Positions 13,743 to 56,153 of a stretch of DNA of 64,000 nt are shown one piece after another. The stretch is from Clostridiales bacterium (GTDB lineage: Bacteria; Bacillota; Desulfotomaculia; Desulfotomaculales; VENG01): the NCBI GenBank assembly GCA_021736985.1, contig JAIPEW010000007.1, forward strand, positions 1 through 64,000, given 5' to 3'. Made by a program: the position numbers and the translations under genes. Position 1 is the stretch's first letter; every line of letters begins with the position of its first letter. Under the pieces are notes generated by a model. The model worked only from the letters and a program-made list of their open reading frames with translations. It made no database searches and was not told the origin of the DNA.

Positions 13743-15116
13743 TTACAAACGTTGAATAGTGTAAAGGTACGTTGGGAGTCGGCTTAGACGCTTTATTTGA
13801 TTAAAGTAAAAAAGCATACTCCTAGAAGGCATTGTTGAAAAAAATGGAGAAATATAAATAGTACCCTTATTTTGTGGGTGATCAAGGCCCTCACGAGCTA
13901 ATTGAAAAAAAGTAGAGTAATGTTCAGGGGGTAATTCATCTCCCAAAATAAAATTAGCAGTAATCTCTATATTGTTAAATTCTTGATTAATATACATCAT
14001 CCGCTTAAAACTTTCGATTACTTGTTTTGCAGATATTGGTTTGCCAATATAATCAAGTGTTGCCTGGTCAGCAGACTCTAACCCCAGATTAATATAAGTT
14101 CGGCAACCTATTTTTTCAAGTTGTTGAAAAAATGAATCATTACTAGCTAAAAACGAATCCACACTTCCAAAGAGGTAAAGACTACAGCCATGCATACATG
14201 AGTTACGCAATCCAAACTGCTTAATAGCTTTCTCTGCGTTTTCGATGATAAAATCTTTATTTGAATTAAGAGCGTCATGATCGCCTAAAAAAATAGCATT
14301 GTAATTAAGCAAATTATGTCCGTAAAGTTGTTTTAGTTGCTCTATTTGTTTTTCGACTTCACTTGCCGTCCGGGTTGAAAAGGGGCGATTGTTTTTTACC
14401 TCACAAAAAGCACATTTATAGATGCAGCCCTCGGAGAGCGAAAGAGGAATTACATTATAATCAACGTGCCGAGTATCCGGTGGCAAGACCGAAGGACGTG
14501 AACCTATAATATTAAATAATTTATTAGCTCTATCCTGGAGAATTTGCGGTGTTATTTTTAGTACTTCATTGATAAAACTAGCAAATGGTTCTGGAAAATC
14601 GCATGAAGGTTGCAGTGATGTATTTAAAATATCGTACCAAGAGCTAATCAGATTTTGTACTGATGTTTCATTAAAGGGATCGACTCCTAAAACTGAATTG
14701 GAAATATAAGAAAAGTTCGGTACGTAATATTCTCCTATAGCTTTATATATCTCATTATAAGGACTGGGAATTTTGAAATGAATCGGTTCAGTAAGAAAAT
14801 CCTTCCCAAAACTTTCATAAGTCCCGCTGTAACCACCTGTTGAATAATAAACCCAATCATTACCAGTAGTTCGTTTTAGCCATTCCAGGGAACTCGGCCA
14901 ATTATCCTGTTGCCCCTGCATGCCTACAATCTCATTATTTAAATTAAATTGAAAAACAGCTTCAGGTGTTTCAATTTCTGAGTAACATCCGTATTTGACC
15001 GGATGACGACTCTTTACATATATATCTTCACCTTTTTTGTTTAAAGTAATACGAATTCCGCGTCGAAAGCAGGTGTCTTCTTGTCTATTCATATATTCTT
15101 TCTGCGGCATATTCAT
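13743..15116 (-). CDS. Radical SAM protein of unknown specificity
   Basis: 457 residues. The cluster-binding CxxxCxxC is at 231-238 (GCIYKCAFCEV), preceded by an unusual ~220-residue N-terminal extension without recognised domain. It continues with a TIM-barrel-like region (AIFLGDHDALN, YINLGLESADQATLDYIGKP), the glycine-rich and 'LGLES' style motifs of the elongator-protein/B12-radical SAM branch. The stop is at the hairpin at 13742. Its start lies 20 bp downstream of the M24 gene, so the two form an operon. The substrate is unknown; the pairing suggests a shared small-molecule pathway. Confidence 0.75.
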   Translation of the reverse strand: MNMPQKEYMNRQEDTCFRRGIRITLNKKGEDIYVKSRHPVKYGCYSEIETPEAVFQFNLNNEIVGMQGQQDNWPSSLEWLKRTTGNDWVYYSTGGYSGTYESFGKDFLTEPIHFKIPSPYNEIYKAIGEYYVPNFSYISNSVLGVDPFNETSVQNLISSWYDILNTSLQPSCDFPEPFASFINEVLKITPQILQDRANKLFNIIGSRPSVLPPDTRHVDYNVIPLSLSEGCIYKCAFCEVKNNRPFSTRTASEVEKQIEQLKQLYGHNLLNYNAIFLGDHDALNSNKDFIIENAEKAIKQFGLRNSCMHGCSLYLFGSVDSFLASNDSFFQQLEKIGCRTYINLGLESADQATLDYIGKPISAKQVIESFKRMMYINQEFNNIEITANFILGDELPPEHYSTFFQLAREGLDHPQNKGTIYISPFFSTMPSRSMLFYFNQIKRLSRLPTYLYTIQRL

Positions 15117-15136
15117 TACAATTCTCCTTTGGCTTG

Positions 15137-16396
15137 TTATCGTAGCAGATCTTCTTCATACGGATAATTCGACAAAAGTTCTGTACCGTGTTCAGTAATT
15201 AACAATTGCTCTTCTAGTTTCACACCTTCACGGCCACCATCTTCACCAATATATGATTCCACACAAATCGTCATATTAGGGAGAATAATACCATCATATC
15301 CTGCATCCGGAAAATCTGCATGATGATAGAGATAGGGATATTCTCCGGTCATTCCAACTCCATGGGCAGAGAGATAGTATCGATTGGCATGATATTTATC
15401 AGGTATATTCCATGCTTTGTCAGCATATTCACGAAAGCTCATACCTGGTTTTAAAATATCTATATTGTGTTGTATTTGCTCATAAGCTAACTTATAGATA
15501 GTCTTCTGTTCTTCCGTAGGTTGGTCTGGTCCGGAGTGAAAAGTTCGGGAAAAATCAGTATAGTAACCATGACAACCGACAACATCAGTATCGAATCCAA
15601 TCAACTCATTTTCACCTATTGTCTTGTGAGATGATTCCTGAAACCATGGATTAGTTCTTTCCCCTGAATTCAGCAACCGGGTTTCCACATAATCACCGTT
15701 TAGAGCTATAATCTGCTGGTGAAGAATGGACCACAATTCATTTTCTGTAATTCCCGGTTGAATATTCTCACGCAATGTACCAACTGCTGTCTCAGTTGCT
15801 TGAAGTGAAGCCATCATACATTTAAGCTCTTCATCTGATTTTATACTTCGAGCCATTTCAACCGGTTCTTGCGCATCAACAACTCGAACACCTAGAGCCG
15901 CCAATTCAATAGCAACTCCAGCATTCATCCGCTCCAAACCAACTGTCAACTGACGTTCACCGACAAGTTGGGTAATAGTCGATAATATCTCACGTGCCCA
16001 ATTTTTTTCTCGATCGACAATATGGGGACCAGCAGCTACAAACCCAGCAGTTTTAGCCGGTCGAACTTCATCAATAGTTTCAAATCCATCAGCCAAATGC
16101 ATACACCCGGTAAACTCATACAGAATTGTCTTATGTTCTGTTACTAAAAGGTAGCGAGACGGGGTATTTCGTGCTGAAAAAACTTGCATATTTCGAGTAC
16201 CACTAGTATAACGAATATTCACAGGATCCGAGAGGATAAGAGCTGAAATGTCTCTTTCTTTCATTTCTTTTCGAACCCGCTCTAATCTATATAAGCGAAC
16301 ACTCCGTAAATCTATACCGATATCCTCAGGTGCCTTTTCATTAATATCTACCCCTACTTGACCATCATTTTCAGAATGCCATTCAATTACTGCCAT
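15137..16396 (-). CDS. M24-family metalloenzyme resembling DddP (DMSP lyase-like)
   Basis: 419 residues with a creatinase-like N-terminal domain and a pita-bread M24 domain. Candidate metal ligands D269, D271, D281, H345, E380 and E395 have the same spacing I recall for DddP, the M24-type DMSP lyase. Other DddP-like stretches are DPVNIRYTSGTRNMQ, VETRLLNSGERTNPWFQES and KLEEQLLITEHG. However, the position of the DddP catalytic aspartate six residues after the histidine is G351 here, with E352 next. So lyase activity is doubtful, and it may be a related hydrolase or lyase of a betaine-like compound. It forms an operon with the radical SAM gene. Confidence 0.7.
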   Translation of the reverse strand: MAVIEWHSENDGQVGVDINEKAPEDIGIDLRSVRLYRLERVRKEMKERDISALILSDPVNIRYTSGTRNMQVFSARNTPSRYLLVTEHKTILYEFTGCMHLADGFETIDEVRPAKTAGFVAAGPHIVDREKNWAREILSTITQLVGERQLTVGLERMNAGVAIELAALGVRVVDAQEPVEMARSIKSDEELKCMMASLQATETAVGTLRENIQPGITENELWSILHQQIIALNGDYVETRLLNSGERTNPWFQESSHKTIGENELIGFDTDVVGCHGYYTDFSRTFHSGPDQPTEEQKTIYKLAYEQIQHNIDILKPGMSFREYADKAWNIPDKYHANRYYLSAHGVGMTGEYPYLYHHADFPDAGYDGIILPNMTICVESYIGEDGGREGVKLEEQLLITEHGTELLSNYPYEEDLLR

Positions 16397-16604
16397 TAAC
16401 TACACTCCATTCTATAAAAATAAATAATGCGATCAATCTTAACACTACACTAAAACCTGTTGCAGGTAACTTACATAAAATATTATTTTACTTTTAACTA
16501 ATAATTTTTCTTCTAAAGCAATTAGCCTGCTGCTAGACATGTATTATCTGTTGCTTTAAACTGTATTTAAAAACTTTTGCAATATGAAAAAGAAGAATTT
16601 TTAC

Positions 16605-16651
16605 AATAAAAAAGCCTACCTTCTATATGTAATTGCCAAGCGAAGGCGGGC
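16605..16651 (-). terminator. Terminator of the isochorismatase-like unit
   Basis: Minus strand: GCCCGCCTTC ... GAAGGTAGGC with one mismatch and an 18-nt loop, followed by a T-run. Confidence 0.6.
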
Positions 16652-16669
16652 TTAAAATGTTAAAATTGA

Positions 16670-17343
16670 TTAATCATCTAATAATGCATACATAGATTCA
16701 ACTGTATCAAGCTCATAATCAAAGGTAGCAGGTTTTTTAAATTCCCATACATTGTAATTCTTGCCTTTAACAGTTTTTGCCAGTTCACCAGCATTTAAGA
16801 TTCTGCCACCAAATAACCAGTTTGCCATATCCAAAACCACTACTTTATGCATAGTGTTGGTTAAGCTGCCGCAGGCATCCTTTACCAAGGTGATTCTATA
16901 ATCTCTCCAAATAGCATCCCAAACCGTGGTTTCAAGACATGCCTCGGTCCAAACTCCAAAGATAATAAGATTTTTTCTATACCCATGCTGCTTAACATTA
17001 CATCCAATTTGGAACCATACCATGCCGTAAATTTCTGTTTCCTGAAGACTATATCCCCTTCCTCAGGCGCTATTTCATCACAAAATTCAGTTTCTATCTC
17101 TCCTGCAACACTGTGAATAAGTTTTCCATCACTTTCCCGGGGCTCAAATTTCATAGCGTCAAGTCCCCGGGGATCCAGGTAATGTATGGCATAAATAATG
17201 GGAATACCGGCATCGCGGCAAGATTTAATAGTTGTTTTAGCATATCCCAATACATGGTCCAGATCCTTTACCGGCCATGATTTTCCTCCGGGAATTGACT
17301 TTTGTATATCAATTATAAGTACTGCGGTGTTCCTAGGATCATA
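16670..17343 (-). pseudogene. Isochorismatase-family cysteine hydrolase, frameshifted and startless
   Basis: Two overlapping frames reconstruct one ~220-residue cysteine hydrolase. The N-terminal part reads AVLIIDIQKSIPGGKSW (catalytic Asp region) and KFTAWYGSKLDVML (Lys region). The C-terminal part reads IFGVWTEACLETTVWDA with the nucleophile cysteine. The frames meet at a run of six T (16971-16976; A on the coding strand); one extra base would restore the frame. Upstream, TAA and TAG sit where a start should be, just before YDPRNTAVL. Family members cleave amides such as nicotinamide or N-carbamoyl compounds. It lies downstream of the betaine-binding protein gene, which suggests an osmolyte or amide role. 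Confidence 0.8.
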
Positions 17344-17384
17344 CTATTAGGTCATTATAATTACCTTTAATAATAAATTGATTT

Positions 17385-18326
17385 TTATTTAAACCACTTG
17401 TTAACCACATCTCTATTGTTCTCAATCCACTTTTTAGCCCCTACAACAGGTTTACCTTCCTTTTTAATTGTTGCCATCAAGCTGCCAAGGGTTTGGTCGT
17501 TCATTTTCCAATTTTTAAAGTAGGAAACAACCTGGGGGAACTCCTCGTCAAAATCATTATGTGTGATAAGGTATATATCGTCGGCTTTTCCATAAGCATT
17601 TTGGGGATCTTTAAGATATTTCAAATTATATTTAGCGAAAACCCAGTGGGGATTCCAAAGAGTTACCAGAATAGGATCCTTATTATCTATTGCTGTTTTT
17701 AAAGATGCCACCATACTCGGCCCGGAACTGCTTAACAATTTATAACCCAGGTCATATTCTTTTATACAATCCTCTGTTAACTTCATTAAATTTGCACCGG
17801 CATCAATACCAACGATGGATGTTTTTTTGTTTACAATAAACTTGTCCTTGTTAACATTTAACTCTTTTATGCTATCAACATCCACATACTCGGGAACCAC
17901 AAGGCCCAATTTAGCTTTTTCATACCAAGGACCATACTTATCCAACTTGTCTTTATATCTTTCCCATGATGGCTTATCTGCTTTTGGCAGCCATACCTCA
18001 AGTGAAATATCCAAATCCTGGCTTGCTACGCCTGAATATACTACTGTATTCCCACCGGTAACAACCTTTACATCATAACCCTTTTCTTCTAATAAGATTT
18101 TCCACATATTTGACACAGCTTCATTTTCTGCCCAGTTGTTTGCACCTATGCGAATTGTTTTATCTTTATTTTGTTTGGAAATATCTTTATTTTCATCATT
18201 TCCACTACTACCATTACTACAGCCACATACTGCTAATGATAAAACTAAAACCATCACCATAAAGAACAGTGCTTTTCTCTGAAAAACTTTAATAATTACC
18301 CCTCCTATATTTCTTATACTTAACAC
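17385..18326 (-). CDS. Glycine betaine/choline-type ABC substrate-binding lipoprotein (OpuAC-like)
   Basis: 313 residues with a signal peptide and lipobox-like LAVCGC near residue 35. The mature OpuAC-type domain starts IRIGANNWAENEAVSNMW and contains LEVWLPKADKPSWERY and TLWNPHWVFAKYNLKYL, the tryptophan-rich motifs that form the aromatic cage for quaternary amines. No permease or ATPase gene lies nearby, so the protein must serve a transporter encoded elsewhere. A GbsR-type regulator gene lies upstream. It is paralogous to the binding protein at 23010. Ligand could be glycine betaine, DMSP or a related compound. Confidence 0.85.
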   Translation of the reverse strand: MLSIRNIGGVIIKVFQRKALFFMVMVLVLSLAVCGCSNGSSGNDENKDISKQNKDKTIRIGANNWAENEAVSNMWKILLEEKGYDVKVVTGGNTVVYSGVASQDLDISLEVWLPKADKPSWERYKDKLDKYGPWYEKAKLGLVVPEYVDVDSIKELNVNKDKFIVNKKTSIVGIDAGANLMKLTEDCIKEYDLGYKLLSSSGPSMVASLKTAIDNKDPILVTLWNPHWVFAKYNLKYLKDPQNAYGKADDIYLITHNDFDEEFPQVVSYFKNWKMNDQTLGSLMATIKKEGKPVVGAKKWIENNRDVVNKWFK

Positions 18327-18676
18327 AAAAACAACTTCAAATACCTCCTCTTCGTTTTATCTACATCAAATATTATTTAAAATTATAATAATATAATAGT
18401 ACTAAATATAATTAAATTCAAATATATTTAACTAACCTCAATACTCATACCTGTTATTTGACTTACTATTTTTAATAAATGCTTATATTATTTTATTTTT
18501 AATGCATAATCTAATTATATTTTTTTATATAAACTAAAACATTAAAGCAGTTAATTAGTTATATTTAATTTTAACATTTAACACAAATAAAATAATGCAT
18601 ATAAATAATTTAAACATAAAAGCACACAATAAACATATAAAGCATACAGTTTTTTTTGCATATTCGAAACAAAAAA
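18327..18676. other. AT-rich intergenic region
   Basis: About 350 bp with very high A+T, containing the upstream region of the binding-protein gene and the terminator of the gbsR-like gene. No coding frame or recognised RNA. Confidence 0.6.
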
Positions 18677-18705
18677 CCCCGGAACCTGTAAGGTTAATCC
18701 CGGGG
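18671..18705 (-). terminator. Terminator overlapping the end of gbsR-like gene 1
   Basis: CCCCGG/CCGGGG outer stem with inner AACCT/AGGTT, then six T on the minus strand. The gene's stop codon is inside the stem. Confidence 0.85.
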
Positions 18706-19230
18706 TACAAAATCAAATATCTCTCCGTTCTCAAATACATTTTTCAATTTGTCCAACCATCTAAAATATTTTTTGACCTCAATTAATTTATCAAGATCTT
18801 TTTGGGATTGCTCTATTACCTCCTGCTCTTCACTCTCTAATAATCTCTTATAAATAGGCTCAACTACTTCTATGGCCTGTATACTCATATCTATCTCCCG
18901 GCGCAGAGTATTGCAGAAAAAAGAAGTAAAATTTTTAAAAAAATCAGGGGATGCTTGGTATAAATCCTTTCTATTCCCTTTTTCCCAGACTCTTTCCATC
19001 ATTTTTATGTCCGTCAAATTCCGGGCTCGGGCGCTCATACTGGTTTTACTCATTTCCATGGCTTCAGCCATTTCATCCAAAGTCATAGGATCTTCGTTAA
19101 AGTACATAGTAGCAAACAGTCTTCCCGTAGAAGGGGTTACTCCGTACAAATCCATGGTTTCTCCTATAGCGTTAATTACAATCTGCCGGGCTTTATCTAA
19201 TTCTTGCCTTGTAAAATTACCATTATCCAA
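18694..19230 (-). CDS. GbsR/OpcR-type winged-helix regulator, paralogue 1
   Basis: 178 residues of the GbsR branch of the MarR superfamily, which in Bacillus senses choline or betaine and represses uptake or synthesis genes. Conserved parts are INAIGETMDLYGVTPSTGRL at the N-terminus, the winged helix (MTLDEMAEAMEMSKTSMSAR), and a helical C-terminus. It lies upstream of the first betaine-binding protein on the same strand. A 16-bp palindrome (19376-19391) lies upstream and could be its operator. Paralogue 2 at 24801 is about half identical by eye. Confidence 0.85.
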   Translation of the reverse strand: MDNGNFTRQELDKARQIVINAIGETMDLYGVTPSTGRLFATMYFNEDPMTLDEMAEAMEMSKTSMSARARNLTDIKMMERVWEKGNRKDLYQASPDFFKNFTSFFCNTLRREIDMSIQAIEVVEPIYKRLLESEEQEVIEQSQKDLDKLIEVKKYFRWLDKLKNVFENGEIFDFVPRD

Positions 19231-19399: not shown

Positions 19400-19645
19400 G
19401 GAGAACTTGAAAACAAGCATAAATTCAAGGGACTGCGCTTCCATGACCTTCGCCATACTCATGCTACAATCCTACTGGCCCAGGGAGTGCACCCTAAAAT
19501 TGTTCAGGAAAGGTTGGGGCACGAGAGCATAACTATAACTATGGACACATATTCCCATATACTTCCCGGACTGCAGGAAGAAGCCATGAAAAAATTTGAC
19601 GAGGCATTTAGCGTTAAAAATTCAAAGCAGAACAATCCTGTATAA
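19400..19645 (+). pseudogene. Tyrosine recombinase (phage/ICE integrase) 3' remnant
   Basis: About 80 codons encode the C-terminal catalytic end of a tyrosine integrase: GLRFHDLRHTHATILLAQG (Arg and His of the RHR set), RLGHESITITMDTYSH (His and the tyrosine nucleophile), then the stop. The rest of the gene is gone. It ends ~100 bp from the 3' end of a tRNA-Leu gene, the typical position of an integrase next to its attachment site. This marks an old integrated element. Confidence 0.88.
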
Positions 19646-19742: not shown

Positions 19743-19826
19743 TGGTGCGGGCGGTGGGATTTGAACCCACACGGGATATCCCACTAGATCCTAAGTCTAG
19801 CGCGTCTGCCTTTCCGCCACGCCCGC
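19743..19826 (-). tRNA. tRNA-Leu (anticodon TAG)
   Basis: Acceptor stem gcgggcg/cgcccgc, anticodon loop cttagga in a ctaga/tctag stem, long variable arm, T-loop gttcaaat, and an encoded 3' CCA. The integrase remnant is on its 3' side. Confidence 0.95.
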
Positions 19827-23009: not shown

Positions 23010-23906
23010 TTGTTACAAAAAAAAGGTAAACTATTAGTTTTTATGTTAACTACATTATTCGCTGTAAGTTTTCTTATAAGCGGGTGTGCAGGTAATCAGC
23101 AATCCAGTAAAGACACCCCTGAAAAGAAAAAAGAGCTTCATATAGGCACGGTGGAATGGGCTTCTGCTATTGCAGCTTCAAACGTGGCAAAAGAAGTCCT
23201 GGAAAATAAGATGGGATACGAAAATATTAAGCTTACATCACTTCAAAATGGAGCCCTCTGGACCGCGGTAGCTGAAGGTGATGTAGACGCAGAAGTTTGT
23301 GCATGGCTGCCGAAAACAGATAAAAAATATTACGATCAATACAAGGATAATGTGAACGACCTGGGCCCCAACCTAGAAAACGCAAAAATAGGTTTAACCG
23401 TACCGGGTTATGTAGACATCAATAACATAGACGAGCTTAATCAACACAAAGAAAAATTTAAAGGAGAAATAATAGGCATTGACCCCGGCGCAGGAGAAAT
23501 GCTTATCACTGAAGACGTTATAGATCAATACGGCCTTGACTTCAAGCTTATTGAAGGCAGCGGATCTACCATGACAGCAGCACTGTCAAGGGCAATTAAA
23601 AATAAAGAATGGGTAGTCGTTACTGGTTGGACTCCACACTGGAAATTTGTAAAATGGGACCTTAAATTCCTGGAAGATCCCCAAAATCTATACGGCAATG
23701 CAGAAACTATTCACACGCTGGCCCGCCATGGATTAAAAGATGATATGCCCACAGCATACAAGTTCTTAGACAATTTCAAGTGGACACCAAACCAAAACGC
23801 ACAGGTAATGTATAAAATACAAAAAGGTATGAAACCTGAAAAAGCTGCCCAGGAATGGATAAATGACCATACCGACATAGTAAATCAATGGATTCCGGAG
23901 GAATAA
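23010..23906 (+). CDS. Glycine betaine/choline-type ABC substrate-binding lipoprotein, paralogue 2
   Basis: 298 residues with signal peptide and lipobox ISGC (Cys ~26). OpuAC-type features are TVEWASAIAASNV, EVCAWLPKTDKKYYDQY and VVTGWTPHWKFVKWDLKFL, giving the tryptophans of the quaternary-amine cage. TTG start 7 nt after aaggaggt. A nitrilase-like gene follows 6 bp after the stop, so the two are co-translated. As with paralogue 1, no permease or ATPase is nearby. The palindrome at 22963 should control it. Confidence 0.87.
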   Translation: MLQKKGKLLVFMLTTLFAVSFLISGCAGNQQSSKDTPEKKKELHIGTVEWASAIAASNVAKEVLENKMGYENIKLTSLQNGALWTAVAEGDVDAEVCAWLPKTDKKYYDQYKDNVNDLGPNLENAKIGLTVPGYVDINNIDELNQHKEKFKGEIIGIDPGAGEMLITEDVIDQYGLDFKLIEGSGSTMTAALSRAIKNKEWVVVTGWTPHWKFVKWDLKFLEDPQNLYGNAETIHTLARHGLKDDMPTAYKFLDNFKWTPNQNAQVMYKIQKGMKPEKAAQEWINDHTDIVNQWIPEE

Positions 23907-23912
23907 ATAAAT

Positions 23913-24767
23913 ATGCACAGCTTTTTGAATTTAGCTATAATACAAATGCCGTTAAGCCCAAAAGTCAAAGAGAATATACAATACCTGGAACAGAAAATAG
24001 ACAAGCTTTTTATAGACAGGCGCCGTCCTGATCTTATAGTAGGAGTAGAATTTGGTATTGCTCCCCGGAGTCCAGAACCTGCCGGTGGAGAAATAATAAA
24101 TAAGCTGGCCAGTATTGCATCCAAATATAATATATACTTCATACCTGGAACCATGAAATTAGATGATGGAAAAGGTGGTTTTTATAACGCAGCACCTATA
24201 TTTAACCCGCGGGGGAAATTGATAGATACGTATGCTAAAATGGTTCCGTGGGACAGCCAGCTAGAAGAAGGGACTATCCCGGGAGAAAAATATTCTGTTT
24301 TTGAAATACCGGAAAAAGACACTCGTGTTGGAGTGCAAATATGTTTTGACGCTGATTTTCCTGAAATATCCAGAACTCAAACACTTTTAGGTGCCGAAAT
24401 ACTTATCCAACTTTCCATGGACCCGGACAGCATTCCCCTGTATTATAATACAGTAAAAAATGCACGCGCTATAGAAAATCAAGCTTATTATGTTTATACT
24501 AATGGGGTTGGAGACTATGATAACATGCACCTGCGGGGCCATTCTTCAGTATTTAGTCCCGAAGGAAAAACTTTATACGAAGCCGGAGAAAATCCAACTT
24601 CTCCAATAATAACATTAAACTTAGATGAAGTAAGAACATGCAGGAAACACGGCAGCTGGCACCAAGTACGCACGCTAAAAAACCTTTATAAATACCGGCC
24701 TAAACAACCATATGCAGGCTGCGAAGAAGAAAGTCCATTATTCAAACAATACTTTAGAACTGAATAA
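23913..24767 (+). CDS. Carbon-nitrogen hydrolase (nitrilase/aliphatic amidase superfamily)
   Basis: 284 residues with the full Glu-Lys-Cys triad: VGVEFGI (E ~46), YAKMVPWDS (K ~107) and VQICFDADFPE (C ~142). Members cleave amides or nitriles to acids and ammonia. The closest feel is formamidase or aliphatic amidase. The tight link to a betaine-type binding protein suggests the transported substrate is an amide or quaternary amine derivative, for example a carnitine- or betaine-amide; this is inference. It ends at a bidirectional terminator. Confidence 0.83.
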   Translation: MHSFLNLAIIQMPLSPKVKENIQYLEQKIDKLFIDRRRPDLIVGVEFGIAPRSPEPAGGEIINKLASIASKYNIYFIPGTMKLDDGKGGFYNAAPIFNPRGKLIDTYAKMVPWDSQLEEGTIPGEKYSVFEIPEKDTRVGVQICFDADFPEISRTQTLLGAEILIQLSMDPDSIPLYYNTVKNARAIENQAYYVYTNGVGDYDNMHLRGHSSVFSPEGKTLYEAGENPTSPIITLNLDEVRTCRKHGSWHQVRTLKNLYKYRPKQPYAGCEEESPLFKQYFRTE

Positions 24768-24770
24768 CTT

Positions 24771-24802
24771 AAAATCCTGGAATAAAGATTCCAGGATTTT
24801 TT
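24771..24802. terminator. Bidirectional intrinsic terminator
   Basis: AAAATCCTGGAA / TTCCAGGATTTT, a 12-bp perfect stem between the convergent nitrilase and gbsR-like genes. Confidence 0.92.
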
Positions 24803-25346
24803 ATTCCAGGGGAACATACTTAAAAATTTCCCCGCTTTCAAAAAAATCAATTATTTTATCCAGCCAACAAAAATATTTCCTGGCTTCGTTTAATTTTTCC
24901 CAATCACCACGGGCCTGTTCTTTAATATCCTTATTCTCACTCTCCATAAGCTCTTTATATACTGGCTCTACCTCTTTTATGGCCTGCATACTTAAATCTC
25001 GCTCCCGGCGCCAGCTTCTACAAAAAAAATAAATAAAATTATCTGTAAAATCCTGGCGGGCACGGTATAGATCTTTGCGGCTCCCCTTTTGCCACACTTT
25101 TTCTACCATCTTTATATCCAGCAAAGCCCGGGCCGTAGTACTCATCCTGGTCTTGCTCATTCCCATGTAGCGAGCCATCTCATCTAAAGACATGGGCTCT
25201 TCATAAAAATACATAGTAGCAAAAAGCCTTCCCGTAGAAGGGGTTACCCCATAAAGATCCATTGTCTCTCCTATTGCATTAATAACAGTCTCCCGAACCC
25301 CGTTCAACTTATCCTGGTGAAAAATACTACCTTCTTTTTCTTCCAA
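24801..25346 (-). CDS. GbsR/OpcR-type winged-helix regulator, paralogue 2
   Basis: 181 residues, paralogous to 18694-19230 over the whole length. It shares VINAIGETMDLYGVTPSTGR and a winged helix (MSLDEMARYMGMSKTRMSTT). Probably a repressor responding to a quaternary amine, acting on the binding-protein/nitrilase unit that converges on it. A half-palindrome (tactgcatat) in its own upstream region suggests autoregulation. Confidence 0.86.
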   Translation of the reverse strand: MEEKEGSIFHQDKLNGVRETVINAIGETMDLYGVTPSTGRLFATMYFYEEPMSLDEMARYMGMSKTRMSTTARALLDIKMVEKVWQKGSRKDLYRARQDFTDNFIYFFCRSWRRERDLSMQAIKEVEPVYKELMESENKDIKEQARGDWEKLNEARKYFCWLDKIIDFFESGEIFKYVPLE

Positions 25347-52834: not shown

Positions 52835-52965
52835 ATCGAAAACGCCCTAAAAAGCTATGGTCTTAAACACAGGTAACAATCTGCAAATTGAAAGGGCCAG
52901 TGGATTTCCAGAAGGCAACGGAGTATTCTGAAGGAAACCACCGGCCCGGCAGAAAAAAGCTTAAC
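52835..52965 (-). repeat. Copy of the dispersed repeat family, short-interior form
   Basis: Minus strand: GGGCCGGTGGTTTCC, ~23-nt interior, GGAAATCCACTGGCCC, tttcaatttgcagattgtt, accatag and ggcgttttc. The arms form a strong hairpin. It lies just past the stop of the MoeA-PBP gene, where a terminator is expected. Confidence 0.82.
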
Positions 52966-54886
52966 TCGAACTCCACATTATTTTGCCGCAATCTCTTAAA
53001 TCATACCCGCCCATTCCTTCTACTGCTTTTTGAAATTCGGGCATCTGAATTACTTCTATCAACCTTTGAATATAAGGTGTATTATAAAAGTCGGCAGGTA
53101 TACACAGGTCATATCGCTCTTCTACCACAGGTATGAAATCCAAATCCAGCGCCTTAGCTGCGGCCAATATACCCATTCCTGCATCAGCAGTACTAGATGC
53201 TACTGCCGCCGCTACAGTCATGTGAGTGTATTCCTCTCTTTCATACCCCTGTACAGCAGCAGGATCAATATTGTTCTCCTTCAACTTATAATCAAAAAGA
53301 ACCCTGGTGCCTGCCCCTCTTTGCCTGTTAATATAGCTTATATCCTCCCTGGATAAATCTTTAACTCCTTGTATCTTTTTAGGGTTACCCCTGGCAACAA
53401 TAAAACCCTGCTGTCTGTAAACAAGGTTAACCAGTACAATTTCATCGTCTGGAATAATTTTTTTTATATAAGAAACATTGTAATCGCCAGTCTCTTCGTC
53501 CAAAAGATGAGTACCCCCCAGGTGAGCCTCTTTTCTCTTTAGCGCGTTAAGCCCTCCCAGGCTGCCCACGTGCGCAGAAGAAAGCGTAGCTTCCGGGTAT
53601 CTTTGCCGAAGGTAATTAGCAAGTACATCCAGCGCCATATCATGGCTGCCTATCGCTACCGTAGTTTCCTGTACCTCTTCCAACGGCCGCATCAATTCCA
53701 CTTCTATAGTATCTCCGGAGTTATATCCTTCTGAAAGCCTGGGGATTCTCAGCATACCGTCAGCACGCACCATAGAAGTAATTATCCCCGCGCCTCGTGC
53801 AATAGGAGTAGCAATAAATTTCTCCCCAACTTTGCCCATTTTTACACGAACAAATTCTTCTGTTCCCATGGAAGATACTATTTTTCTAGAAGCTTTCACT
53901 TGCTGCTTTACAGGTTCCGGGCAATAAGAAGCTAATTTATTGTAAATCACGGGCTTTACAAACAAGTTAGTATCTAAAAATGCAGAAACAGGATAGCCGG
54001 GAATACCCATTACAGGTTTCCCGTATATTTCTCCCAGCACTACCGGTTTACCAGGTTTTATTGCTACCCCGTGGGTAAGTACCGTTCCCATCTCTTCTAT
54101 TAATTGTGCAGTGTAATCTTCACGCCCGGCAGAAGAACCTGCATTTATAAGTACTATATCTGAATCTTCCAGGGCCCGTTCAAGCATACTTTTTATCGAT
54201 TCATATTTATCAGCTGTAATTTTCCACCTCACCGGTTCTGCTCCCCACTGCTGCAGCATATTCCCCAGCACCCTGGTATTATATTCCACTATACTGCCTG
54301 CACCAAGCTCCTGTCCGGGCTGCACCAGCTCAGTACCTGTTGGTAAAAGCCCTACCCTGGGCCTGGGATGCACTTGAATTTCAGTCACGCCCCCGGCTAA
54401 AATTGCTCCAATATCCACCGGGCGAAGCCGGTGATTAGCCGGCAGAATCATTTCAGTTGTCACCAGATCTTCTCCAATTACACGCACATGCTGCCAGGGT
54501 ACCGCCGGAGCAATAATTTCCAGCGTTTTTTCCCCGGTAAATTGCACGTCTTCGATCATAATTACCGCGTCACAGCCTTCGGGAAGCGGATCGCCAGTGT
54601 CAACTTCTTTAACATCATCTCCCATTTGCAGCTCTTCAGGATCTGCATCGGAAGCACCGAAAGTATTTGAAGATTTTACAGCAATCCCGTCCATGGATGC
54701 AGCATTATAATGTGGGGAAGACACTCTTGCATATATTGGAGCTGCAGTTACTCTGCCCAGAGCATTTTCAGCCAGAATTGTTTCAGTTTTTCCGGGAGTT
54801 AAAACTCCTTTCTGCTGCAAGTAATATATGTAATTTTGTAATGCTTCCTCCAGGGGCTGCTCGTTTAAATAAACATCTCTTTTCAT
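52961..54886 (-). CDS. MoeA-type molybdopterin molybdotransferase fused to PBP-like domain
   Basis: 641 residues. The first ~400 form a full MoeA: SPHYNAASMDGIAVKS, DPLPEGCDAVIMIEDVQ, LPTGTELVQPGQEL, INAGSSAGREDYTA and GIPGYPVSAFLDTN. The last ~230 form a periplasmic-binding-protein-like (LysR substrate) domain (GSHDMALDVLANYLRQRY, SSAHVGSLGGLNALK, GAGTRVLFDYKL). The fusion is common in anaerobes and is thought to sense or hold an oxyanion or cofactor. 37 bp after the second moeA. Two MoeAs may serve Mo and W separately. Confidence 0.9.
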   Translation of the reverse strand: MKRDVYLNEQPLEEALQNYIYYLQQKGVLTPGKTETILAENALGRVTAAPIYARVSSPHYNAASMDGIAVKSSNTFGASDADPEELQMGDDVKEVDTGDPLPEGCDAVIMIEDVQFTGEKTLEIIAPAVPWQHVRVIGEDLVTTEMILPANHRLRPVDIGAILAGGVTEIQVHPRPRVGLLPTGTELVQPGQELGAGSIVEYNTRVLGNMLQQWGAEPVRWKITADKYESIKSMLERALEDSDIVLINAGSSAGREDYTAQLIEEMGTVLTHGVAIKPGKPVVLGEIYGKPVMGIPGYPVSAFLDTNLFVKPVIYNKLASYCPEPVKQQVKASRKIVSSMGTEEFVRVKMGKVGEKFIATPIARGAGIITSMVRADGMLRIPRLSEGYNSGDTIEVELMRPLEEVQETTVAIGSHDMALDVLANYLRQRYPEATLSSAHVGSLGGLNALKRKEAHLGGTHLLDEETGDYNVSYIKKIIPDDEIVLVNLVYRQQGFIVARGNPKKIQGVKDLSREDISYINRQRGAGTRVLFDYKLKENNIDPAAVQGYEREEYTHMTVAAAVASSTADAGMGILAAAKALDLDFIPVVEERYDLCIPADFYNTPYIQRLIEVIQMPEFQKAVEGMGGYDLRDCGKIMWSSS

Positions 54887-54923
54887 AAAAGCACTCCTTT
54901 ACTACCTACCCGGTAACAGTTAA

Positions 54924-56153
54924 TTAAAACAGCTTCACTGCTGCGCGTTCTCCCTTTTCTAAACCTTCTTTGCCTGCAGGGATTTTGGCCAGACCGCTGG
55001 CTTTAACCATTGTATTTATTAACGCAGACTTTCGCAGCACCGGTTCAGCCAGGATATTATCATTATCCCTTTTTAAAATAACTCGTATATAATCTTCCCT
55101 GCCGGGCGAGGAACGAATGTTGCGGGTTATCTCAGCCTGTACAGGAAATTCCAGCGGTTCACTGCAATACTCCCCCCGGCGAACCAGCGGTTCAACCATC
55201 AGCTGAAAAACAACCATTGCCGAAACCGGGTGCCCGGGCAATCCAAATACCGGCTTGTTATTAATCACTGCTCCCACAGTAGGTTTTCCTGGTTTAATAG
55301 ATATACCGTGAAACAAAATTCCCGGAGAACCCAGTTCCTCTATTACTTTTGATGCTATATCACGTGTACCTACGGAACTTCCCCCGGAAAGCAGCACCAT
55401 ATCACATTCTTGTAAGGCTTTTTCCATCAAACCTTTCAATTCGCTAAAATTATCCCCGGCAATTCCATAAAGAACTGGTTCTCCTCCACATGCAAGCACC
55501 TGGCCGTACAATGTATACGAATTAACATCCCTCATCTGCCCCGGCCCGGGGATTTCTTCTGTTTGTATAATCTCATCACCTGTAGAAATAATTCCTACCC
55601 GGGCATACAGCTTTACCTCAACTTCAAATACCCCTACAGCCGAAAGTAATCCCAGGTCCTGGGGACGTATAATATGCCCGGAAGGCAATATCTGATCACC
55701 TTTTGCTGCATCTTCTCCACAACTGATCATATTTTCTCCCGGGCCCACAGGACGTGTAATACCTATCGTTTTATCATCCAGGATTTCTGTATGCTCCAGC
55801 ATCACAACTGCATCAGCCCCCGGGGGGAGCATACCACCTGTAGGTATTTTGCAAGCCTGTCCGGGCTTTAGCTCATCAGCAGCATTTTTCCCCATAAAAA
55901 CTTCCCCGGATACATTTACATATGCCGGCAAGCTTTCTGATGCGCCAAATGTATCCCTTGATTTTACCGCAAAACCATCCATGGTAGAACGATCAAAACC
56001 GGGCACATTTTCTTCAGCCCACACATCAACTGCCAGGCATTTTCCCAGGGAATTTTTTAAAGAAACTTTCACTGCTAATCTTTTTCCCTGCAAACTTGCA
56101 TCAATTAATTCCCTTGCATTATTAACAGTACTCGCTTGAAAAAGTTCTGTCAT
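54924..56153 (-). CDS. moeA: MoeA-type molybdopterin molybdotransferase
   Basis: 409 residues: NVPGFDRSTMDGFAVKS, GMLPPGADAVVMLEHTE, IISTGDEIIQ, LSGGSSVGTRDI and GLPGHPVSAMVVFQL. It inserts molybdate or tungstate into adenylated molybdopterin. It starts ~21 bp after the 58-residue gene behind ggagg. Regulated with it by the riboswitch at 56503-56648. Confidence 0.94.
   Translation of the reverse strand: MTELFQASTVNNARELIDASLQGKRLAVKVSLKNSLGKCLAVDVWAEENVPGFDRSTMDGFAVKSRDTFGASESLPAYVNVSGEVFMGKNAADELKPGQACKIPTGGMLPPGADAVVMLEHTEILDDKTIGITRPVGPGENMISCGEDAAKGDQILPSGHIIRPQDLGLLSAVGVFEVEVKLYARVGIISTGDEIIQTEEIPGPGQMRDVNSYTLYGQVLACGGEPVLYGIAGDNFSELKGLMEKALQECDMVLLSGGSSVGTRDIASKVIEELGSPGILFHGISIKPGKPTVGAVINNKPVFGLPGHPVSAMVVFQLMVEPLVRRGEYCSEPLEFPVQAEITRNIRSSPGREDYIRVILKRDNDNILAEPVLRKSALINTMVKASGLAKIPAGKEGLEKGERAAVKLF

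Follow-up and report, generated by a model that had tools for sequence, protein, structure and literature searches.

Among enzymes of the M24 fold, ectoine hydrolase (DoeA/EutD) serves compatible-solute catabolism by hydrolysing a C-N bond, and creatinase, which is metal-free, acts on a small N-methylated zwitterion. A third relative is the dimethylsulfoniopropionate (DMSP) lyase DddP, which forms dimethyl sulfide, the gas behind the smell of the sea. PMC10686828 and PMC13360808 count its gene as the one most abundant among marine DMSP-lyase genes; for DddP, the review PMC5395565 describes the replacement of the two M24 catalytic histidines by Asp and Phe, a metal ligand set of three Asp, two Glu and one His, and binding of the DMSP sulfur by a Trp and a Tyr. 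Here we analysed 64,000 nucleotides of a Clostridiales bacterium genome (contig JAIPEW010000007.1, positions 1 to 64,000; hereafter the window), in which a DddP-type, M24-fold metalloprotein of 419 amino acids (15137-16396, minus strand) is encoded together with a radical SAM protein and a betaine-type binding lipoprotein. By sequence comparison the M24 protein falls in a group, the Gly/Arg clade, that is a real and uncharacterised branch adjoining the known DddP family. We put at roughly even chances the reading that this protein is a dinuclear-metal enzyme that breaks down a betaine-type compound (quaternary ammonium or N-methylated zwitterionic) imported via an OpuAC-type protein.

The protein carries the Pfam domains Creatinase_N and Peptidase_M24. 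In an alignment of 92 rows, from which duplicates and matches spanning <300 query residues were dropped (including a decayed copy in L022), its residues D269, D271, D281, H345, E380 and E395 correspond to the DddP ligands D295, D297, D307, H371, E406 and E421, and Y340 and G351 align with Y366 and D377. Because the offset is a constant 26 at all six ligands, Tyr366 and Asp377, the ligand spacing is identical to that of DddP, as a first-pass annotation of this locus had proposed, and its placing of Gly351 at the position of the lyase's aspartate is borne out by the same alignment. Both catalytic His positions of M24 peptidases are replaced, by Phe252 and Gly351; an M24 paralogue from the same genome (L024) has His at both. 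An AlphaFold model built from 20 sequences (predicted local distance difference test score, pLDDT, 77.1; under 50 in the loop with F73 and R76) matched DddP best, with a Z score of 37.5, ahead of Xaa-Pro dipeptidase (32.3), creatinase (29.9) and DoeA (29.7), in line with the DddP-type fold first supposed. DoeA differs further in its ~24% identity and in other active-site columns, and creatinase, a metal-free enzyme, differs from the window protein, in which the full ligand set is present.

Similarity to DddP (PDB 4RZY, 4B28) extends to the fold, the six-ligand dimetal site, the Tyr366/340 pair and the Phe that replaces the first peptidase His, at ~30% identity, whereas Asp377 is changed to Gly, H98 to Arg, W262 to Tyr or Phe and W95 to Phe or Tyr. 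Against the DddP model NF043017 the protein scored 294.7 bits, under the curated cut-off of 600, and relatives from S. meliloti, G263, Paraburkholderia and R. leguminosarum scored 288-362; an annotated DddP (L062) and a DddP-clade protein (L112), used as controls, reached 853 and 903 bits. This score, together with the separate clade and the change of Asp377 to Gly351, sets the window protein apart from DddP itself.

In the maximum-likelihood tree of this alignment, the window protein belongs to a clade with a support of 100/98, whose 33 members come from Proteobacteria, Actinomycetota, Bacillota (two) and Spirochaetes (one), while true DddP forms a five-row subclade deep among the rows that have Asp. 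The Asp377 column holds Gly in 33/33 clade rows, Asp in 52, Gly in one protein outside the clade (L099) and other states in 6. All six ligands and Tyr340 are kept throughout the clade. Three columns, changed jointly, separate it from the Asp side: position 76 is Arg in 33/33 clade rows as compared to His in 49/52, position 236 is Tyr or Phe in 33/33 as compared to Trp in 51/52, and position 351 is Gly in 33/33 as compared to Asp in 52/52. Y279 and F282 are each found in 32/33 clade rows (the latter with one X), and the W95 column, which we take to be that of the DMSP-sulfur-binding Trp, is Phe or Tyr in all 33. L099, excluded from these clade counts, has R, Y and G at the three separating columns too, which suggests that columns 76, 236 and 351 change as a unit, provided that L099 is correctly placed. 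Because the Phe is kept, the Asp is lost and the W95 column is Phe or Tyr, the catalytic machinery of the peptidases and that of the known lyase are both incomplete in the clade.

The wider family around DddP is large: DddP-like M24 proteins occur in 53/289 alphaproteobacterial genomes, some with four to six (six in G898), and most of those placed in the tree fall outside true DddP; we found no description of them in the literature. Many members lie far under the DddP cut-off, one clade has lost the proposed catalytic base, and loose searches could count such proteins as DMSP lyases. A search of open-access journal papers returned no description of the Gly/Arg clade, of the rhizobial pSymA gene cluster discussed below or of the pairing of M24 and radical SAM genes.

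Gene neighbourhoods place the clade in a quaternary-amine setting. Over 24 genomes (the window's, G263 and those of 22 loci, one decayed), an OpuAC gene lies within 10 kb of the M24 gene in 9, where the OpuAC counts and sizes of the genomes would predict 0.60 (P 1.6e-8); with close relatives reduced to one Paraburkholderia and one Nocardiopsis, the figures are 6/21 and 0.52 (P 1.7e-5). On the Asp side 1/26 loci has OpuAC within 10 kb (R. leguminosarum, where Rieske and hydroxyproline epimerase genes are also present), a count not directly comparable because flanks there are mostly 3 kb. At least one of OpuAC, MttB, flavin adenine dinucleotide (FAD)/GcvT or Sox-like, GMC, isochorismatase and hydantoinase genes is found within 10 kb at 19/33 clade loci, and OpuAC-type genes near M24 in L013 and L056 were found by other means. 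In L004 and L006, MttB is 28-33 bp from M24 and FAD/GcvT genes also adjoin; choline-dehydrogenase-like (GMC) genes stand beside M24 in some clade members. On plasmids of S. meliloti and Shinella the order is MttB, a GlxA-type regulator, M24, isochorismatase, an ABC transporter with a betaine-binding protein, a mandelate-racemase-like gene and an Ldh-family gene; in a third Sinorhizobium MttB is not annotated, yet it was found by the neighbour-family check. The pSymA protein of Sinorhizobium (CP140933.1, U8C41_03825) shares the clade, the active-site set and the isochorismatase, MttB and betaine ABC transporter neighbours, but is 45% identical to the window protein, and none of the genes annotated in the 17 kb region examined is of the radical SAM type. 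The quaternary-amine context proposed at first pass is thus backed by neighbour genes in several phyla.

The lipoprotein of the window, ProX1 (17385-18326, minus strand), has an OpuAC (choline/betaine) domain, as expected of the betaine-type binding protein noted there previously. In a tree of 39 OpuAC proteins, which excludes duplicates and proteins that BLAST (E 1e-4) did not match to either ProX of the window, the M24-linked ProX of the window, G263, a Sediminispirochaeta metagenome-assembled genome (MAG) and three Paraburkholderia form one clade (100/96). These six genomes span three phyla, and just two members of the clade are unlinked, a paralogue from the window's genome and another from G263. 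The exclusion criteria keep the linked OpuAC proteins of Nocardiopsis, Sinorhizobium and Shinella out of this tree.

The radical SAM gene (13743-15116, minus strand; PF04055, with a CxxxCxxC motif) lies 20 bp downstream of the M24 gene on the same strand. The pair was found in four genomes of two phyla: the window's, its nearest relatives G263 and L001, and, as a decayed copy, L022, so that the co-occurrence raised as a check in the first-pass annotation was observed. The genes are 3 bp apart in L001, which is cut by the contig end, whereas in G263 they overlap, the extent (at most 20 bp) varying with the start codon chosen; in L022 pieces of M24 run straight into radical SAM residues 327-431. 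Between two Bacillota the pair is 77% (radical SAM) and 85% (M24) identical with the same gene order, and a spirochaete also has it. Of 398 Bacillota genomes, 101 have matches, mostly to generic radical SAM proteins at 20-40% identity, and a close orthologue occurs in only 2, both times beside M24. Among 296 spirochaetes, 8 match at E 1e-12, one of them (G398) with M24 and four at 24-30% identity only. The clade M24 gene itself was found in 1/296 spirochaetes, 1/63 genomes of G263's class and 1/113 of the window's own class. The radical SAM protein was absent (E 1e-8) from the genomes of 26 other clade carriers; the 27th genome searched, that of L022, has the remnant. With the models of the B12-binding radical SAM proteins HpnR and PhpK it scored 19-20 bits, below their cut-offs of 600-650, and a sequence search for a relative of solved structure gave none (best E 0.22). 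The pairing is a real but narrow association.

These observations lead us to a model for the pathway. ProX would bring in a betaine-type compound; with no Asp base, a metal-bound hydroxide would attack a C-N bond (amide, carbamoyl or amidine) while Arg76 and the metals hold the substrate carboxylate. The reaction is probably hydrolytic C-N bond cleavage. A methylated amine or betaine released in this way would next be demethylated: other carriers would use MttB or FAD-GcvT-type enzymes for this, and here the MttB/corrinoid genes of the host itself may serve. Where a radical SAM protein adjoins, as in the window, G263 and the Sediminispirochaeta MAG, it might carry out a further catabolic step, perhaps in place of one done by O2-dependent or flavin enzymes in aerobes; its role is the weakest and least certain part of the mechanism. 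The isochorismatase relative, intact and adjoining M24 in Sinorhizobium and Shinella and broken in the window, may represent a neighbouring amide-cleaving step lost in this strain. In its widest form the proposal is tentative, and we consider it doubtful as a whole: the Gly/Arg clade would be a new type of enzyme, acting with two metals as the hydrolase (or lyase) of a betaine-type compound in at least four phyla, and some Bacillota and spirochaetes would have a two-enzyme operon in which the radical SAM protein takes, without O2, the step before or after, an undescribed anaerobic route of betaine degradation feeding MttB-type demethylation. The clade also offers a concrete, testable candidate enzyme for the breakdown of betaines, and one of its carriers, Sinorhizobium (pSymA), is open to genetic work.

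A number of points weigh against this model. The preference for hydrolysis over elimination is one of chemical inference. None of the neighbour families sought was found at 12/33 clade loci, two of which (L012, L106) have flanks of less than 1.6 kb on each side, too little to judge; null expectations were computed for OpuAC and MttB only, and the MttB excess is modest (within 10 kb in 3/28 genomes as compared to 0.51 expected, P 0.015). The M24-linked OpuAC proteins of L013 and L056 fall outside the ProX clade. Three of the eight matching spirochaetes have a relative of the radical SAM protein at 41-44% identity with no M24 in stretches of 18-19 kb, its AlphaFold model (two sequences, one a fragment; pLDDT 38.7) was not used, and the pair may have a single origin and have spread by transfer. 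The radical SAM gene could instead have no tie of function to the M24 gene and have been transferred along with it, which would be compatible with the proposed M24 function. We regard this as a serious possibility, if one we lean away from: the absence of the radical SAM gene from the other clade carriers and the lone occurrence of its relatives in three spirochaetes agree with it, but the spacing of at most 20 bp in the window and L001, the near-overlap in G263, the common order and the conservation of the pair between the two Bacillota and in a spirochaete speak for a functional link.

Three other functions of the M24 protein were considered. We regard it as unlikely that the protein is a lyase, which would carry out beta-elimination as DddP does, with a sulfonium or ammonium betaine as substrate and Tyr340 replacing Asp as the base. 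The common fold and six-ligand site, and a Tyr366/Tyr340 column unchanged in all 85 clade and Asp-side rows, are what such a lyase would have; against it stand the lost Trp of the W95 column and the N-demethylation and isochorismatase genes among the neighbours. For RdDddP, PMC4108388 names Tyr366 as an alternate base but favours Asp377. Slightly less probable still, in our judgement, is a creatinase-like enzyme that depends on metal and liberates sarcosine, or an N-methylglycine related to it, from a compound of the creatine or hydantoin type, while isochorismatase and hydantoinase supply the partner steps. The M24 fold includes creatinase, hydantoinase A and B genes lie near M24 in L136 and L020 and adjoin a close own-genome paralogue of ProX1 (L182 8049-12704), and FAD/GcvT or sarcosine-oxidase-like genes occur in L004, L006, L015 and Shinella. 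But the OpuAC and MttB neighbours indicate quaternary amines, the creatinase structure match is weaker (Z 30 as compared to 37.5 for DddP), and the hydantoinase genes, for which no null was computed, fix no substrate. An ordinary Xaa-Pro dipeptidase or aminopeptidase, finally, is highly improbable. The M24 Pfam domain and the public annotation of relatives as 'Xaa-Pro peptidase family protein' point that way, but Phe and Gly occupy both catalytic His positions, the additional DddP-type Asp ligand is present, and fold and phylogeny put the protein with DddP: it lies in a clade separate from the single prolidase-like row, an outgroup on a long branch, so the placement among dipeptidases that the first-pass annotation had named as a refutation was not seen.

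The host genome contains three MttB-family genes; in one of them a stop interrupts the matching stretch. One of these regions also encodes B12-binding, pterin-binding, RACo and BCCT proteins, which by family are the components of a corrinoid quaternary-amine demethylation system. Because of this region and its ferredoxin-oxidoreductase genes, the host is likely to live anaerobically. The earlier description of the route as anaerobic thus seems apt for the window and its nearest kin, but not for most carriers, which have other neighbours and no such radical SAM gene and which we take to belong to largely aerobic groups.

Between the M24 and ProX1 genes lies an isochorismatase-family pseudogene (16679-17340, minus strand) whose coding sequence is split over two frames and whose 5' end shows no ATG start in frame; Pfam finds two isochorismatase pieces within 16670-17250; called a broken amidohydrolase at first, it is indeed broken, but is isochorismatase-fold by Pfam. 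Beyond ProX1, the GbsR regulator reported earlier is recognisable as CudC/GbsR-type (18694-19230, minus strand; NF047500, 202.9 bits, cut-off 218). Promoter and terminator scans gave matches no more numerous than in shuffles, and neither GC content nor GC at third codon positions (GC3) marks the M24/radical SAM pair as foreign. On the plus strand at ~19430-19645, a C-terminal remnant that by eye reads as a tyrosine recombinase stands beside tRNA-Leu (19743-19826); the stretch that holds the M24, radical SAM and ProX genes may thus be an island of old date, although the 3' end of tRNA-Leu was not found duplicated in the window. A second cassette of similar make-up at 23010-25346 encodes ProX2 and a carbon-nitrogen hydrolase, with a protein that by eye resembles a CudC/GbsR-type regulator on the opposite strand, which suggests that betaine-type modules are repeated in the window. 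Further along, 52961-56153 holds two consecutive MoeA-family genes, one with a C-terminal PBP-like domain.

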